A stretch of DNA of 64,000 nt from Ruania albidiflava DSM 18029 (GTDB lineage Bacteria > Actinomycetota > Actinomycetes > Actinomycetales > Beutenbergiaceae), in contig NZ_ATWL01000005.1 of the NCBI RefSeq assembly GCF_000421225.1, positions 1 through 64,000 of the forward strand, in the 5' to 3' direction. The position numbers and the translations under genes are program-made. Each line of letters opens with the position of its first letter. Position 1 is the stretch's first letter. This document shows, piece after piece, positions 37,701-56,636 of this stretch. The notes below the pieces were generated by a model, which saw only the letters and a list, made by a program, of their open reading frames with translations, had not been told where the DNA came from and searched no databases.

Positions 37701-38039
37701 GACAGCGTCCGGTCTGCTCACCCCGGCGCGGGCAAGCCGGCGCAGCCGGGAGCGGATCCGTACGGACAGCTCCGAGGCTGCCTTCCGGGTGAACGTCAGG
37801 CCGAGGATCTCGCTGGGGCGGACCAGCTGGTTGGCGACCAGGTAGACCACCCGGGCGGCCATCGTCTCGGTCTTGCCCGAGCCGGCACCAGCCACCACGA
37901 GCATCGGCTCCAGGTCCGCCTCGATCACCGCGGTCTGCTCCGGGGTGGGGCGGGGCTGGCCGAGGGCGTCGGCGATGGCGTCCGCGCTCCAGGTGGTGGT
38001 CGCCGGTCTCCCGGCAGTCTCTTCGCTCCTCGTGCTCAT
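34788..38039 (-). CDS. adnB: AdnB-type helicase-nuclease subunit
   Basis: A 1083-residue protein: a UvrD/RecB-type SF1A motor (motif I VVAGAGSGKTETM at about residue 48; motif II LLDEYQDTS; motif III GDPNQAIYGWRGA; AAKGLEWD; ALTRARHEL) followed by a RecB-family nuclease domain with the catalytic IDAVFATDDGVHIVDWKTG about 80 residues from the C-terminus. With AdnA it forms the actinobacterial RecBCD/AddAB analogue that resects double-strand breaks. ATG overlaps the adnA stop by 4 bases. Order matches M. tuberculosis Rv3201c-Rv3202c. Confidence 0.92.
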   Translation of the reverse strand: MSTRSEETAGRPATTTWSADAIADALGQPRPTPEQTAVIEADLEPMLVVAGAGSGKTETMAARVVYLVANQLVRPSEILGLTFTRKAASELSVRIRSRLRRLARAGVSRPDAVEDQPRIATYNSYAAGIVTDHALRIGVDPDATLIGDAGRYQLADDVVRTWPDDLDTTAAVSTVVDAVAALAAELSEHGRSPGEAAAEIDRLIRSLTEKEDEPGKKPGMRAAVRRVVESLSTRRALMDLVAAFTARKQTDGVVDFGDQVRLAATIAAQVDDVGAGEQTRYRAVLLDEYQDTSIAQVQMLRALFGDGHPVTAVGDPNQAIYGWRGAAAGTLLDFPDAFPGPDGPARTVNLSTAWRNDLAILRAANHLAAPLRTEAVAELAARPDAGGGSVQARYTETHLEEAEQIAVYLGQRWASGASAAVLCRRRAQFVAIEQALTAAGLPCQVVGLAGLLSTPEVADVRAALQVAHDPSRGDAMMRLLTGPSVHLGAVDLQVLADWSRTQASAWTRPGADESTANREDAEGSGAEELPQVREAVEEASLVEAVDRLPRPEWHSPRGRSLSEAARARLQRLAEAIRTVRALTHLSVPELITATEQALELDIEVLAATPGSAGHARRHLDAFTAAGADFADGSGAPTLGAFLAYLDVAEDEERGLEVLEAEPDPQAIQIMTVHAAKGLEWDCVVVAGLNMGDFPALQHTPAEDKPVTSGGWLTPIGTLPYPLRGDAASLPELQAEEAATHTEMESALAQFRLEEGQRLLQEERRLAYVALTRARHELLLTGSFWAAQTRPKRPSPFLTELVRADLVETAGLPDASEHEQNPAGPAGQNATWPEPAAAVGQQWDRVWQDAGAGVLPGVSAQAQQWWQDAELLLAERDRAAAQTTDRPAHLSASAVVALAEDPAAFRRNRRRPVPRQPSVQARRGTRFHAWLEQYFGSRALLDWEALPGADDDLAGEDAALAELQQAFLASEWAHAHPIGVEVDIETPVRSVMVRCRIDAVFATDDGVHIVDWKTGAPPQDARTLRSRRMQLALYRLAWSRLHQVPLENIQASFVYVGARETISSGEITEAEIDEVLATVTVGAR

Positions 38040-41000
38040 CGGGCCACCCGCGCACCCTCGGGCTGCGCCGGGCAGGAGGTGCGCACCGGGCAGGTGCGGC
38101 AGGTCTCGTTCGGCCGGGCCTCGAAGTGGTCTGCAGCCATCGTCTGCGCCCCGTCCTGGACGAGCTCCTCGGCCCAGGTGGGTGCGGCGTCCTCGGCCAG
38201 AGGCAGCTGGTCGCGCTGCGCGGCGTTCTTCGCTTTGGTACCCACATAGAGCAGAGCGGCGCCACCGCTGCGGTCCAGCCGCTCTCCGCCGGCCTCTCCA
38301 GCATCGAACGCGGCGGCGAACCCGCCCCGCTCTGCGGCCACCTGGTAGCTGCCCAGCTGCGGGTGCCGCGCGGCGTCCGCCGTGCTGACCGGCGTGGTGC
38401 CGGTCTTCAGGTCCACCACGCGCACGCCCTCGGAGGTGAGCTCCACCCGGTCCACCCGGCCGCGGAGCACCGCCCGGCCCAGGTCCACCTCGAAGGGCAC
38501 CTCAGTGGCCACCGGCCCGGGGTGGGCAGCGAGATAGCTGGCGAGCTTGTCCACCATCTCCTCGGCGCGGCGGCGCTGCACCGCACCCACCCAGCCGGCG
38601 GGCAGGTCGAGCTCGTGCCAGCGCGCGTCCAGGTCCGCACGCAGCTGCTCGCGCGTGCCGTGCGGGTGGCTAGCGGCGATCTCGTGGATCAGGTTGCCCA
38701 GGCTCTGCGCAGCGCTGTCCGCGGGTCGGCCACCGGAGCGGGTGAGCATCCAGCGCAGCGGGCAGGTGGCGACCAGCTCCATCGTGGACGGGCTCACCAC
38801 CACCTGCTCCTGCGGTCCGGCGAGCATGGCTGTGCTGGTGGCTGGCAGCAGCGGCGGCCACTGGCTCGCGTCCGCCCCGGGGACGTCCCGCTCGGCCAGG
38901 TAGGTCAGCAGCGCTGCGGCCTCGGACGCCAGCGCCAGCTCCTCAGCGGGCACCGGTCGGTCCTGCAGCACCGGGCGGAGCTGGGCGCGTAGCCGGCCGA
39001 CGAGCCCGCGCAGGTCCAGCGGGTGCGACACCTGCGCGATCGTGGGCGCCTCCTGCCCCTCGGGCAGCAGCATCTCCACGAACACCGACGGGCGGGCGTC
39101 CGTGTTCAGCACCGCGGTGACCAGCACCTCCCGGCGGGCGCGGGAGCACGCGGCCACAAAAGCACGCAGCTCCCCCTCGTACACCTCCCGCCGGGCTCGA
39201 CGGAACCGGTCGGTCTCGGCACCGGCCTGGTCGCGGGAGGTGGCCACGTGCCGGGCGGTGGCGATGTCGGCCAGCTCGGCGGCGCCGAGCAGCGAGTCCC
39301 GGATGCGCAGGTCCGGCCAGACCTCCTCCTGCACACCGGCCACCACCACCACCTCCCACTCGCCACCGGCAGCTCCGGCCGGCGTGTGCACCGCGACCGC
39401 ATCACCGAGGCGGCCCTGCTCGGCGAGGGTGTCCGCCGGGAAGTCCTGCGCCTCCAGGTGGGCCAGGAACCCCTCCGGAGAGGCCATCGTGGCTCGGTCG
39501 GTGAACTGCTCGGCTGCGCGGAACAGCGCCATCACCGCGTCCAGGTCCTCATCAGCCCGGTCGGCGCCGACACCACCGGCCAGCGCCCGCCGCTGCCAGG
39601 CCCCGGCCAGGCCGGTGGCCGACCAGATCGCCCAAAGCACCGTCTCCACTGTGGCGGCCTGCGCGGCTAGCGCCTCCCGACCGGCGGCCAGCACCGCCAG
39701 CAGCTGGTGCACCCCGCGAGCCAGACGACCGGGCAGCTCCACCTCGGCCAGCTCCGCAGCACCGGAGAGCAGAGCAGCGAGCAGCTCCTCGGAGCGCCGC
39801 GTGCCACCGGCGTCCCGCTCCGCCTGCCGCAGCCGACGGCGCAGCGCCCGCACGGTCACCGCATCCATCCCACCCACCGGTGAGCACAGCAGCGCCACCG
39901 CGTCCTCGGGATCCAGCCGGTCAGCCAGCACCGCCCGCAGGGCGAGCAGCAGAGCCGCCACCGCCGGCTCTTCCCGCAGCGGACGGTCCGGCAACGCCAT
40001 CTCCAGCGGCACACCGGCGCTGCGCAGCCCGCGGCGGATCGCCCCGGCCAACCCGCCGGAACGCACCACCACCGCCATCTGCGACCAGGGCACCTGCTCG
40101 TGCACGTGCTGCTCGCGCAGGTACCGCGCAACGTAAGCCACCTGCTGCGCATCGCTGGCCAGCAGCGCAGTGCGCAGCTGCGACTCCTCGGCCACCGGCT
40201 CAGCCCGCCGGCGCCGGGCCTCCTGCAGCGTCGGCAGCCCGCCGCTGAGCTCGGCGACCGGTCCGCGCAGCCCAGGGCCGTGCCGCCACACGCGGGTGAG
40301 CACGTGCGTGCGGGCCCCCCAGGCGCCGGCCTGCCCGGGTGGGAGGGAGGCAGTGTGCAGCAGGGCGGGGAGCCCGCCGCGGAACTGCTGGACCGCCACG
40401 TCCGCGTCCCCGAAGACTGCCAGCCGGGCACCGTCACCGGCCAGCGCATCCAGCAACCGGGCCGTGGCCAGGGTGGCGTCCTGGTAGTCGTCGTGCAGCA
40501 CCAGGTCCCAGCGGGGCCGCTCAGTGCCCGGGACGTCCTGCTCCCAGCTGTGCAGGGCGTGGGTGGCCTCATCGACGATCGTGGCGGCGTCGTAGCGGGC
40601 GCCACGGTCTGGGGTGGTCTGGCTCAGCGCCATCACCTGGGTGTACTCGGTCAGCAGCGCACCGGCGGCCACCCACTCCGGCCGGTGGTGACGCTCCCCC
40701 CACGCAGCCAGGCCCTGTCCGTCCAGACCGGCTTCGGCCGCGCGCATGTGCAGGTCCCGCAGCTCGTCCCGGAACGCCCGCAGGCTCAGTGCTTGCGCAG
40801 GTACCGTGGCTGGCCAGTCGATCACCACCCCCTCCCCAGCCGCATGACCGGCGAGCAGCTCGGCCAAGATCTGGTCCTGCTCCGGTCCGCTCACCAGGGT
40901 CGGTGGTGGTTCCCCGCGCAGCGTCGCCCGGAGCCGCAGCACGGCGAAGGCGAGCGACGCGGGGGTACGCACCAGCACCGAGGAGGTGGTCCGTGCCAGC

Positions 41001-41209
41001 TGTGCGGCCACCTGGTCACGCACCACGGCAGCCCGGCGGCGGGTGGGCACGAGCAGCACCCCAGCACCACCGGTGGCGGTGAGCCAGCGGGTGAAGGTGA
41101 GGACCGCCGTCGTGCTCTTGCCCGTGCCGGGCGCACCGTGCACCACGTGGTGCCCACCGGCCAGGATCGCGTCCTGCACGGCGCGTGAGACGTCCTGCGG
41201 GGTGCTCAT
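38036..41209 (-). CDS. adnA: AdnA-type helicase-nuclease subunit
   Basis: A 1057-residue partner of AdnB. The motor has motif I HGAPGTGKSTTAV near residue 25 and a motif II DDYQDA, with further SF1 motifs less conserved. The C-terminal nuclease domain contains RVDRVELTSEGVRVVDLKTG. Cysteines in ATCPLRW and the C-terminal CRTCPVRTSCP can form the AddB-like 4Fe-4S staple. A 4-base overlap with adnB ensures co-translation. ATG 41209; no strong ribosome site is evident. Confidence 0.9.
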   Translation of the reverse strand: MSTPQDVSRAVQDAILAGGHHVVHGAPGTGKSTTAVLTFTRWLTATGGAGVLLVPTRRRAAVVRDQVAAQLARTTSSVLVRTPASLAFAVLRLRATLRGEPPPTLVSGPEQDQILAELLAGHAAGEGVVIDWPATVPAQALSLRAFRDELRDLHMRAAEAGLDGQGLAAWGERHHRPEWVAAGALLTEYTQVMALSQTTPDRGARYDAATIVDEATHALHSWEQDVPGTERPRWDLVLHDDYQDATLATARLLDALAGDGARLAVFGDADVAVQQFRGGLPALLHTASLPPGQAGAWGARTHVLTRVWRHGPGLRGPVAELSGGLPTLQEARRRRAEPVAEESQLRTALLASDAQQVAYVARYLREQHVHEQVPWSQMAVVVRSGGLAGAIRRGLRSAGVPLEMALPDRPLREEPAVAALLLALRAVLADRLDPEDAVALLCSPVGGMDAVTVRALRRRLRQAERDAGGTRRSEELLAALLSGAAELAEVELPGRLARGVHQLLAVLAAGREALAAQAATVETVLWAIWSATGLAGAWQRRALAGGVGADRADEDLDAVMALFRAAEQFTDRATMASPEGFLAHLEAQDFPADTLAEQGRLGDAVAVHTPAGAAGGEWEVVVVAGVQEEVWPDLRIRDSLLGAAELADIATARHVATSRDQAGAETDRFRRARREVYEGELRAFVAACSRARREVLVTAVLNTDARPSVFVEMLLPEGQEAPTIAQVSHPLDLRGLVGRLRAQLRPVLQDRPVPAEELALASEAAALLTYLAERDVPGADASQWPPLLPATSTAMLAGPQEQVVVSPSTMELVATCPLRWMLTRSGGRPADSAAQSLGNLIHEIAASHPHGTREQLRADLDARWHELDLPAGWVGAVQRRRAEEMVDKLASYLAAHPGPVATEVPFEVDLGRAVLRGRVDRVELTSEGVRVVDLKTGTTPVSTADAARHPQLGSYQVAAERGGFAAAFDAGEAGGERLDRSGGAALLYVGTKAKNAAQRDQLPLAEDAAPTWAEELVQDGAQTMAADHFEARPNETCRTCPVRTSCPAQPEGARVAR

Positions 41210-41261
41210 GTGCCGATCTCACCATCCCACACCGACATCGAGGAGCGCACGGGCCGCACGG

Positions 41262-42140
41262 TCAGTGCAGCGGCCAGCCGTTCGGGGTGCAGCGGTCCAA
41301 GGAGATCGTCTGCTGCTGCATCACCGGGGCCACCTCACCAGGACCTGGGCACTCCCGGTGGTGGTGACCCAGCAGGTGGCCCACCTCATGGTTGATCAGG
41401 TACTGCCGGTAGGCGGTGATCGAACCCTGTTCGAGGAACTCGTCGGTCGCCTGCGCATAGCGCATCGCGTTCAGCACAGCGTGCCCGTTCCAGCCGCAGG
41501 AGTACAGCCCCAGGGTGCGCAACGGGGCACACATCTCGTCCACCTGGTCCGGGGAGGCGAGCACCACCCGGATGTCCGCCTCGGCGTCGGTACGGGCGAA
41601 GGAGACCGAGCCGTCGTGGCCCCAGCCGCGGCGGTCGTTGAGGGTCTCCATCACGAATGTGGTGAACTCGTCGGTGTCGATGGGCAACCCGTCCTCGACC
41701 TCCACCCGGATCTGCAGGACCTGGTCGGCGTCGGGGGCCGGGGCGTCCTGCTCGCCAGGGACGACGGTCAGTGTGCCGTCCGCGGCGTCCGGGATGTCCC
41801 GGTCGCGTACACCGGCGCGGGCGTCGGCACGCTCTGCCGGGGACAGCGTCGGTTCCTCCGTCGGTTCTTCGGTGGGGTCCTGGGTGGACTCCTCGGTGGC
41901 CTCGTCTGCGGGCTCCTCGGCAGCCATCGCGCTGGCATCCTCCGGTGCTGCCGCAGCGGTGGCGTCCGCCGTGCCGCCCGCGTCGCGCTCGGAGTTCCGG
42001 CTGACCGCGTCCTGGCTGCGGGCGTCGACGGCCGTAGGGCGGGGTTCTCCGGTCTCGGAGGACAGCACGAGCGGGGCGAGCAGGACCCCGAGCAGCACTC
42101 CTAGGCCTACTGCTGCCACGGCGAGCAAGAACCGACGCAT
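41262..42140 (-). CDS. DUF3152 secreted metzincin-like metalloprotease
   Basis: A 292-residue protein. One N-terminal membrane/signal helix (RRFLLAVAAVGLGVLLGVLLAPLVL) is followed by a low-complexity Glu/Pro/Ala/Thr linker with EEPTEEPT repeats, then the DUF3152 domain from about residue 120. The zinc motif HEVGHLLGHHH (HExxHxxGxxH) is complete, with CPGPGEVAPVMQQQT as a likely Met-turn region, and paired Cys. Conserved actinobacterial gene (Rv3207c); substrate unknown. ATG 42140; divergent from the DUF3107 gene. Confidence 0.9.
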   Translation of the reverse strand: MRRFLLAVAAVGLGVLLGVLLAPLVLSSETGEPRPTAVDARSQDAVSRNSERDAGGTADATAAAAPEDASAMAAEEPADEATEESTQDPTEEPTEEPTLSPAERADARAGVRDRDIPDAADGTLTVVPGEQDAPAPDADQVLQIRVEVEDGLPIDTDEFTTFVMETLNDRRGWGHDGSVSFARTDAEADIRVVLASPDQVDEMCAPLRTLGLYSCGWNGHAVLNAMRYAQATDEFLEQGSITAYRQYLINHEVGHLLGHHHRECPGPGEVAPVMQQQTISLDRCTPNGWPLH

Positions 42141-54354: not shown

Positions 54355-55236
54355 TCAGCCGCCACCGAGGAGCACGTCCAGGCCGTGCGCGAACCGGTCC
54401 ACCACGCCGTCCTCCACCCCGGCCGGCATCTGGGCGATCAGCTCGTGCGCCGCCGTGGGATCCGCACCGGAGGAGACGGCGACCACCGAGGTGCCGCACT
54501 GGGACACCCACCAGTGGTCGGCCACCCGGTACACATCGTGCCCGGCGACCCGCACCGCCTCCAACGGGGCAGTGGTCGACTCGTCCAGCACGCCGTGGGC
54601 CTCCATCACCTGCACGCTGCCGCTGCTGCCGGCCAGGTCGACCTGCAGGATCGGGCCTGCGGGGTCGTCCAGCACCAGCACGTCCCGCACGGACAACCCG
54701 GCGGGCAGCTGCGCCGGGGCAGTCCAGCCGCTGCTGCTCATCCAGTCCAGCACGGTCGCGGAGAGGTCCTCACCACCGGTGGATGCCGGGGTGATCACCG
54801 CACTGGGGGCGACCGCACCCTCCGCCGTCCCACCGAGAGCGACCAGCGGGGTGAGGTCGTCCACCTCGCGCTGCTGCCCACCGAGCACGAACAGCGCCAC
54901 GGCGAACACCCCCATCGAGGCCACCGCCCCGGAGAGCACCCGCAACCGGGTGCTGCGCAGCGGGCGGGGCCGGGTGGTCTCCTCTGGCAGGTAGCCGCTG
55001 GACAGCGGCCCGGAGGACTGGCCCGGCATGTTCAGCGCAAGCAGCCGGCGGGTGAGGTCATCGCTGGCGCGCACCTGCCCGGTGGACCGGGCAGCGGCGG
55101 CCCGCAGCGCCCGCTCGGCCTGCACCTGGGCACGGCACCCGGCACAGTGCACCAGGTGAGCACGGGCACGCTCAGCCTTGGCCGGCGACAGGTGGCCGTC
55201 CACGAGCGGGGAGACGAGCGGTCCGAGATGGCTCAC
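54355..55236 (-). CDS. rseA: anti-sigma factor (RseA-like) with zinc-finger domain
   Basis: A 293-residue anti-sigma factor. The N-terminal ~80 residues form a ZAS domain with the H-x3-C-x2-C zinc motif in [16 protein letters not shown], binding and silencing SigE. One membrane helix follows at about 96-115 ([20 protein letters not shown]), then an extracytoplasmic domain. It overlaps sigE by 4 bases. The membrane span suggests release by regulated proteolysis, though the mycobacterial RseA is shorter. Confidence 0.9.
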
Positions 55237-55871
55237 CCGGCGACCTCCGCAGACGCGGCGGCGGACCCGCGGGCCTCGATGACCCGCGGGGAACGGTGCG
55301 CCAGCCTGGTGCGCAGCTGGGCCCGCCCGCGGTGGATGCGGGAGCGCACAGTGCCCATCGAGATGCCGAGCACCTCGGCGATCTCCTCGTACGAGAGGCC
55401 CTCGATGTCGCAGAGCACCACAGCGGCCCGGTACTGCGGCTTGAGCGAGTCCAGCGCCTCCTGGATGTCCCGGTCCAGGTTGTCGTGCTCGTAGCGCCGC
55501 TCCGGGGAGCTGGTGTCGGTGGTGGCCGCGATCCGTTCCACCGCCGGGCCGAGCGCGTCGAACCGGATCCGCTTCTTCCGCCGCTGCCCGTCCAGGAACA
55601 GGTTGGTGGTGATCCGGTGCAACCAGCCGGCGAACGTGCCCGGGCTGTAGGAGTCCAAAGATCGGAACACCCGCACGAACACCTCCTGGGTGAGGTCCTC
55701 AGCATCGGCCCGGTTGCCGGTGAGACGGTAGGCGAGCCGGTACACCCGGTCGGTGTTCTCCCGGACGATCTGCTCCCAGCTGGGCGGCTGCCAGTCCCGG
55801 TCGCCCGCGACCGGATCCCCGGCCGAGGTCGGGGCGGCAGACGGGTGGTTCGCAGCGGCAGAGGTAGTCAT
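55233..55871 (-). CDS. sigE: ECF sigma factor, SigE-like
   Basis: A 212-residue group IV sigma factor. Region 2 ([52 protein letters not shown]) is joined by a linker to region 4 ([51 protein letters not shown]). It sits upstream of an anti-sigma factor, htrA and tatB, the conserved SigE stress block. ATG 55871; a TACGAT element (55886-55881) lies 9 bases upstream on the minus strand. Divergent from the O-methyltransferase. Confidence 0.94.
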
Positions 55872-55955: not shown

Positions 55956-55961
55956 TAGCAT
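55956..55961 (+). promoter_or_regulatory. -10 element (TAGCAT) of the O-methyltransferase gene
   Basis: TAGCAT would start transcription near 55968, giving a short leader that includes GGAGG at 55993-55997. It shows that this gene, unlike many neighbours, is translated from a leadered mRNA. Confidence 0.5.
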
Positions 55962-56003
55962 CGGAGCAGTCCCGCCGTCTGCGAGCCGACCTGGAGGCCC
56001 ACC

Positions 56004-56636
56004 ATCGCTGCCGACAAGGCCCTGAGCTGGGCGTACACCGAAGAGTTCCTCACCGAACCGGACGCCCTGCGCACCGCCCGTGCCCGCGCCGAGGAGTTCG
56101 GCATCGATGCTGTCTCGGTCGGTGTGGGTGCCGCACTGCGGATGCTCACCGCCGCGAGCAACGCCCGGGCGGTGGCCGAGGTCGGCACCGGCACCGGCGT
56201 CTCCGCGCTGTGGCTGCTGGAGGGGATGGCCCCCGACGGGGTGCTCACCACGATCGACGTGGAGGTGGAGCACCAGCGGGCGGCGAAGGAGGCGTTCGCC
56301 GACGCAGGGATCCGTTCCACCCGCACGCGCACCATCTCCGGTCGAGCGCTGGACGTGCTGCCGCGGCTGGCCGACTCCGCCTACGACCTGGTGTTCCTGG
56401 ACGCCGAGCCGAGCGAGACCAGCGACTACGCCGAGCAGGCGGTGCGGATGCTGCGCCGTGGTGGGATGCTGGTGGTCGCCGAGGCGCTCTGGCACGACCG
56501 GGTGGCCGATCCCGCGCGCCGGGACGAGCTCACCGTGGCCATGCGCGAGCTGGGCCGCAGCGTGCGCGAGGACGAGAACCTGGTGCCGTCGCTGCTACCG
56601 GTGGGCGGCGGGCTGCTGGTGGCCATCACCCGCTGA
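56004..56636 (+). CDS. SAM-dependent O-methyltransferase (class I) with apparent ATC start
   Basis: A methyltransferase of about 210 residues, Rv1220c-like. Seen: the N-terminal family block [18 protein letters not shown], the SAM motif [35 protein letters not shown], and [15 protein letters not shown]. No ATG, GTG or TTG exists in frame between the TAG at 55956 and a GTG at 56124, which would remove the conserved first 40 residues. GGAGG (55993-55997) lies 6 bases before ATC 56004, so translation may begin at ATC, or the reference carries an ATG-to-ATC change. CTG 56022 is another option. Confidence 0.85.

Follow-up and report, generated by a model that had tools for sequence, protein, structure and literature searches.

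A conserved AUC codon behind a strong Shine-Dalgarno sequence most likely starts an O-methyltransferase gene in Ruania and many of its relatives

Organization of the methyltransferase locus

The window analysed here is a 64,000-nucleotide stretch of a contig of Ruania albidiflava DSM 18029, and its forward strand carries an O-methyltransferase gene at positions 56004–56636, with a length of 210 codons plus the stop codon. The reading frame is closed upstream by a TAG at 55956–55958, 16 codons before an ATC at 56004–56006, which is most likely the initiation codon of the gene and would be a very unusual one. The original prediction that ATG, GTG and TTG are missing in frame from this TAG to the GTG at 56124–56126 agrees with the sequence and with an in-frame scan, which places this GTG, the first canonical codon of the frame and codon 41 of the gene, 40 codons downstream of the ATC. 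CTG is also absent in frame between the TAG and the ATC. The predicted Shine-Dalgarno sequence (SD) GGAGG at 55993–55997 was confirmed by direct reading and is separated from the ATC by a spacer of six nucleotides.

The hexamer TAGCAT at 55956–55961 has the form TANNNT, begins 48 nucleotides before the start, and may represent a -10 element, in which case the leader would have a length of roughly 35–40 nucleotides. A TANNNT sequence beginning 20–60 nucleotides upstream of the gene is present in 50 of the 86 non-AUG loci described below, but absent from L003 and L004, which are the closest relatives. Control of the gene by an upstream open reading frame was also considered. An ATG, GTG, or TTG occurs in one frame or another between positions -35 and -1 in 33 of the 86 non-AUG leaders, but the stretch of the window from approximately 55968 to the ATC lacks all three codons, and the idea was set aside.

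The conserved neighbour of the methyltransferase gene is a divergent ECF sigma factor gene, located on the reverse strand at 55233–55871. A homologue of it lies upstream on the opposite strand in 134 of the 136 loci with at least 600 nucleotides of upstream sequence, a set in which some genomes are counted twice. The hexamer GTTCCC is found in the stretch upstream of the methyltransferase in 77 of 171 genomes, but not in that stretch of the window. It is the reverse complement of GGGAAC, a -35 sequence of some ECF promoters.

The gene encodes an Rv1220c-type O-methyltransferase

The encoded protein matches the family Methyltransf_3 (PF01596) with an E-value of 2.5e-28 and a score of 99.2 bits, for a cut-off of 22. 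Its closest solved relative is the Rv1220c-type O-methyltransferase structure 5x7f (E-value 8.3e-60), to which residues 8–208 could be aligned. TrmR (8k1f) and YrrM (5zw3) belong to the same broad O-methyltransferase family, but match the protein far more weakly (E-values of 2.6e-8 and 1.3e-7, respectively). TrmR, a tRNA 5-hydroxyuridine (ho5U) methyltransferase, was considered as the closest solved relative and rejected, because 5x7f is far closer. The structure predicted by AlphaFold2 has a mean pLDDT of 90.2, with low confidence for residues 1–5, and contains helices formed by residues 20–31 and 39–51.

In metal-dependent catechol-type O-methyltransferases, an Asp-Asn pair following a core strand contributes to the metal site. 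In the window protein, Ala-Glu occupies this place, whereas a regular expression detected Asp-Asn in 69 of 171 orthologues (31 of 86 genomes with non-AUG and 38 of 85 with canonical starts; 14 of the 171 were unresolved). This difference from the orthologues indicates that the metal dependence of the window enzyme may have been lost.

Coding sequence extends upstream to the ATC

According to the standard rules for start codons, the protein would begin at GTG 56124 or at another canonical codon, leaving the part upstream of it untranslated, and the list of open reading frames contains a 170-codon frame starting from 56124. We consider such an internal start very improbable and reject GTG 56124 as the initiation codon. 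Codons 2–40 show a coding-type substitution pattern and encode conserved residues: initiation at GTG 56124 would delete Trp9, Tyr11, Glu13, Glu18, Ala25, Arg26, Gly33, and Gly40, all of which are invariant among 25 aligned proteins. In the AlphaFold2 model, it would remove the helix of residues 20–31 and cut that of residues 39–51, and the alignment to 5x7f starts from residue 8, far upstream of codon 41. Furthermore, the offset of the first canonical codon shifts between orthologous loci, from 40 in L002 to 38 in L003, 36 in L025, 43 in L037, and 59 in L022.

To locate the boundary of the coding sequence, substitutions at each of the three codon positions were counted in 21 loci of families f1 and f3 that have an ATC start. 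Upstream of the ATC, the substitutions are distributed evenly (2081/2209/2133), and a codon-like pattern begins downstream of it, with 1984/1763/2822 changes in codons 2–40 and 6365/5119/13791 beyond. The comparison of the window genome with L003 alone gives 9/8/9 upstream and 4/2/16 in codons 2–40. The ATC is invariant across the 21 loci, which were selected as ATC-start; for scale, third positions are invariant in 9 of 180 cases in codons 21–200 and in 7 of 19 in codons 2–20. Of the 122 loci that a script called as non-AUG, 36 have an in-frame stop within 45 codons upstream of the conserved tryptophan and no canonical codon between the two; those of the 36 loci that bear family labels span 13 families. 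The second residue is alanine, serine, or threonine in 112 of 120 loci, as expected if the initiator methionine is removed, and since it is often small in canonical-start orthologues too, this sign is supportive only.

Synonymous codons 2–20 (positions 56007–56063) are unusually conserved in the AUC-start group of families f1 and f3, in which 0.88 and 0.81 of them are identical, versus 0.52–0.69 later in the gene. Similar conservation early in the gene is seen in family f9. This signal raised the possibility of a conserved RNA hairpin spanning the start, which was rejected; no shared helix joining the SD region to the beginning of the coding sequence was found in 70 ungapped loci, and we therefore do not claim one. 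Among ATG-start control families, f17 also has 0.83 identical codons in codons 11–20, and f6 has 0.68 in codons 2–10 versus 0.37–0.55 later.

The ATC is shared by the genus and by many named relatives

The gene is present in all eight genomes of the genus, and in each of them the homologous position is occupied by an ATC that follows a GGAGG. The original prediction left open whether the codon is a natural AUC start or the product of a one-base error in the assembly that turned ATG or GTG into ATC, and named close relatives with ATG or GTG at 56004 as evidence against an AUC start; none of the eight genomes has either codon there. Because the assembly is still in draft form, with 60 contigs, an error has some initial plausibility. 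However, the same ATC in every genome of the genus and in dozens of independently sequenced species excludes a single-base error, the probability of which we regard as negligible, and the ATC behind an SD in these relatives bears out the natural start.

Among the best 80 of the 227 named relatives found, a set that overlaps the 171 genomes analysed below, the match starts at ATC in 37, at ATG in 24, and at some other codon in 19. Reading the N-termini of the latter revealed an ATC behind an SD further upstream in 17 and an ATG in two (L066 and L093), which brings the number of ATC starts to 54 of these 80. The genera with ATC starts include Ruania, Occultella, Georgenia, Cellulomonas, Cellulosimicrobium, Oerskovia, and Sanguibacter, and the 24 ATG records belong to Arthrobacter, Paenarthrobacter, and Pseudarthrobacter.

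Distribution of non-AUG starts in the class

The start region was read in 171 genomes from 37 families, sampled from the order and class. From the order, 110 higher-scoring genomes of the 270 with a match were read, and families f4, f7, f10–f13, and f18–f20 were left out. Of the 286 genomes with a match in the class, 30 belong to the same order; 61 genomes outside the order were read, with families such as f31, f40, and f46 left out. The counts thus describe the genomes read and not the whole class.

Start codons were called by a script in 234 distinct loci, resulting in 122 non-AUG starts, 111 canonical starts, and one locus with neither; L207, located near a contig end, was dropped. Reading of the sequences moved L096 (with its duplicate L175) and L224 to the canonical group. 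Five loci were moved to the non-AUG group. In L129, L131, and L153, the SD of the ATC is weaker and GTG codons occur further upstream; the start of L201 and L252 is CTG. The corrected total is 125 non-AUG starts in 234 loci.

The start is non-AUG in 86 of the 171 genomes: ATC in 80, including the three with a weaker SD, ATT in four, and CTG in two. These genomes represent 23 of the 37 families and 49 of the 101 genera. The ATT starts occur in the three genomes read from family f35 and in one genome of family f36. The apparent CTG starts of L201 and L252, the single genomes read from families f24 and f30, are positioned behind a GGAGG-type SD. The remaining 85 genomes use ATG, GTG, or TTG; since about half of the sampled orthologues thus manage with a canonical codon, the gene can do without a non-AUG start. 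Beyond the class, GTG or ATG was seen by eye near the expected N-terminus of seven orthologues with 43–51% identity (L422–L428).

Probable loss of the non-AUG start and of the leader

The history of the start codon was reconstructed on a FastTree tree of 171 proteins, aligned from the conserved tryptophan onward and rooted at the midpoint. By parsimony, the start type changes 24 times. In a two-state likelihood model, loss of the non-AUG start without gain (lnL -68.3, 26 losses) is much better than gain without loss (lnL -86.6, 31 gains), and the gain rate is practically zero, which places a non-AUG start at the root. Because of the midpoint root and many weak forks, the exact number of losses is soft. 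It is probable from this comparison of sequences that the non-AUG start predates the diversification of the class and was later replaced repeatedly by AUG or GUG. The sharing of such an odd start points to an old, selected translational control and not to a sequencing error.

An SD with at least five matching bases is found in 80 of the 86 non-AUG genomes, although SD strength was also used in assigning genomes to the non-AUG group. The count of TANNNT boxes located 4–10 nucleotides before the start is, unlike the SD count, independent of these calls. Such a box precedes none of the 86 non-AUG genes and 43 of the 83 canonical-start genes that could be scored (L191 and L193 of the 85 could not), against a background of 0.8%. 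In the 83 canonical-start genes, an SD of at least five bases is present in 20, both box and SD in two, and neither in 22. Judged by the box, 43 of these 83 orthologues look leaderless. Leaderless initiation favours AUG and GUG, which would explain why AUC was given up together with the leader.

AUC starts are probably rare in coding regions of the genome

If AUC starts were common in these genomes and simply missing from their annotation, there would be nothing special about the methyltransferase. The motif GGAGGN{5,6}ATC occurs at 541 places in this genome (269 + 272), compared with 77 + 61 for the reversed control, so the motif alone proves nothing and the case rests on comparison. The SD-plus-ATC sites of the genome include the ATC of infC. 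A catalogue of further AUC-start genes based on the motif was attempted and abandoned: of 30 places fetched from the 541, one precedes an open frame that spans 80 codons or more and lacks a canonical codon from the upstream stop to the ATC. With a GC3 of 0.52, this frame does not resemble coding sequence, and no convincing gene was obtained.

The rarity of such starts was surveyed in 224 kb of the genome by ungapped comparison with the nearest relative. The survey was limited in size, excluded genes with indels, and overlooks infC-like cases in which a chance GTG lies upstream; it comprised 167 non-overlapping open reading frames, 73 of them coding-like. In eight of the 73, the alignment continues for 12 codons or more ahead of the first ATG, GTG, or TTG, and the methyltransferase, with 6/4/17 changes by codon position, is the only one of the eight with a clear coding pattern there; three of the others show the pattern of a different frame, and in the remaining four the changes are too few for a judgement. 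Two frames outside the coding-like set also drew attention. The frame at 40848–42101 has a coding-type pattern of 0/4/16 before its first canonical codon and was rejected, since its pattern is explained by a 1057-codon frame on the opposite strand at 38036–41209. The frame at position 159206 of the contig has an upstream pattern of 17/13/25 at 37% identity. That infC also starts with AUC, and that annotation misses the starts of sigR and infC in Streptomyces (PMC5472188), speaks for common unannotated AUC starts; the outcome of the survey speaks against them, and we consider this explanation improbable.

A search of open-licence literature returned no report of an AUC start for this methyltransferase, and the papers on ATC starts dealt mostly with mitochondrial genomes. 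Annotation may misplace the N-terminus of the methyltransferase in many genomes.

Proposed mechanism of initiation

We propose, with a probability of approximately 0.8, that the gene encodes an Rv1220c-type O-methyltransferase whose start at AUC 56004 is set by the strong SD and is weak and discriminated against by IF3, the role of IF3 being deduced from infC and from sigR of Streptomyces. The 30S subunit would be retained at the site by the SD, which would position initiation at the AUC, where the initiator fMet-tRNA would mispair at the third base, while the codon would set the rate. The enzyme would remain at low abundance and be made in larger amounts when IF3 or the fidelity of start-codon selection falls. 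By analogy, discrimination of the start by IF3 is most likely.

Alternatively, the AUC may be the true start and only set a constant low expression, with IF3 having no regulatory use. The replacement of AUC by canonical codons about 26 times fits this alternative, as it implies that other expression settings are tolerated. Nevertheless, a strong SD beside a weak codon, as found in 80 of 86 genomes, is an odd way merely to lower expression, and infC combines the same two elements in the same taxa. We regard constant low expression as unlikely and favour regulated initiation at the AUC.

More tentatively, and with slightly less than even odds, the ancestor of the class may have had at least two genes that responded to start-codon fidelity, infC and the methyltransferase next to the ECF sigma gene, the enzyme being a translational output of falling fidelity. 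Lineages would have left this arrangement by loss of the SD or by leaderlessness, which forces AUG or GUG. If control by IF3 is true, the sigma factor and methyltransferase locus would be tied to the translation status of the cell. With a second gene besides infC that retains a non-AUG start in much of a bacterial class, it becomes possible to test whether start discrimination by IF3 serves more generally as a means of regulation. The orthologues also provide a natural series of replacements of AUC by AUG or GUG, many of them accompanied by promoters of the leaderless type.

Comparison with infC and sigR

Very few non-canonical starts have been studied by experiment (PMC5472188), and one switch to AUU has been counted among 61,358 ancestral AUG starts (PMC5622118). 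In Streptomyces, infC begins with ATC and is autoregulated by IF3, and the GTC start of sigR is repressed by IF3; the same study found this GTC to be conserved in Streptomyces and saw no sign of it in other genera of actinobacteria (PMC5472188).

In the taxa studied here, infC starts with ATC in 120 and ATT in five of 125 loci; the calls required at least four matching SD bases, and none of the loci failed. The codon is ATT in all five genomes read from family f6 (L301, L303, L304, L342, and L359). The starts of the two genes vary independently: in family f6, infC has ATT with a canonical methyltransferase start, and in family f35, infC has ATC while the methyltransferase has ATT. Both genes thus use AUC or AUU behind an SD in the same taxa. 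However, infC never has AUG in the sample, whereas the methyltransferase has AUG, GUG, or UUG in 85 of 171 genomes, which indicates a weaker constraint on the methyltransferase.

Like the methyltransferase, Streptomyces sigR combines a non-canonical start with an extensive SD, has a small residue next to the methionine that is removed, and belongs to a stress-sigma setting. It differs in codon and gene, and its GTC was found conserved in Streptomyces only (PMC5472188), in contrast to the 23 of 37 families with a non-AUG methyltransferase start. In addition, the odd start of sigR is on the sigma gene itself, whereas the sigma gene of the present locus lies divergently beside the gene with the odd start. 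As in infC and sigR, the methyltransferase has a start other than ATG, GTG, or TTG with no canonical alternative, kept in relatives and preceded by a strong SD. On the strength of these sequence comparisons, it is probably a new addition to the small set of non-AUG-start genes typified by infC.
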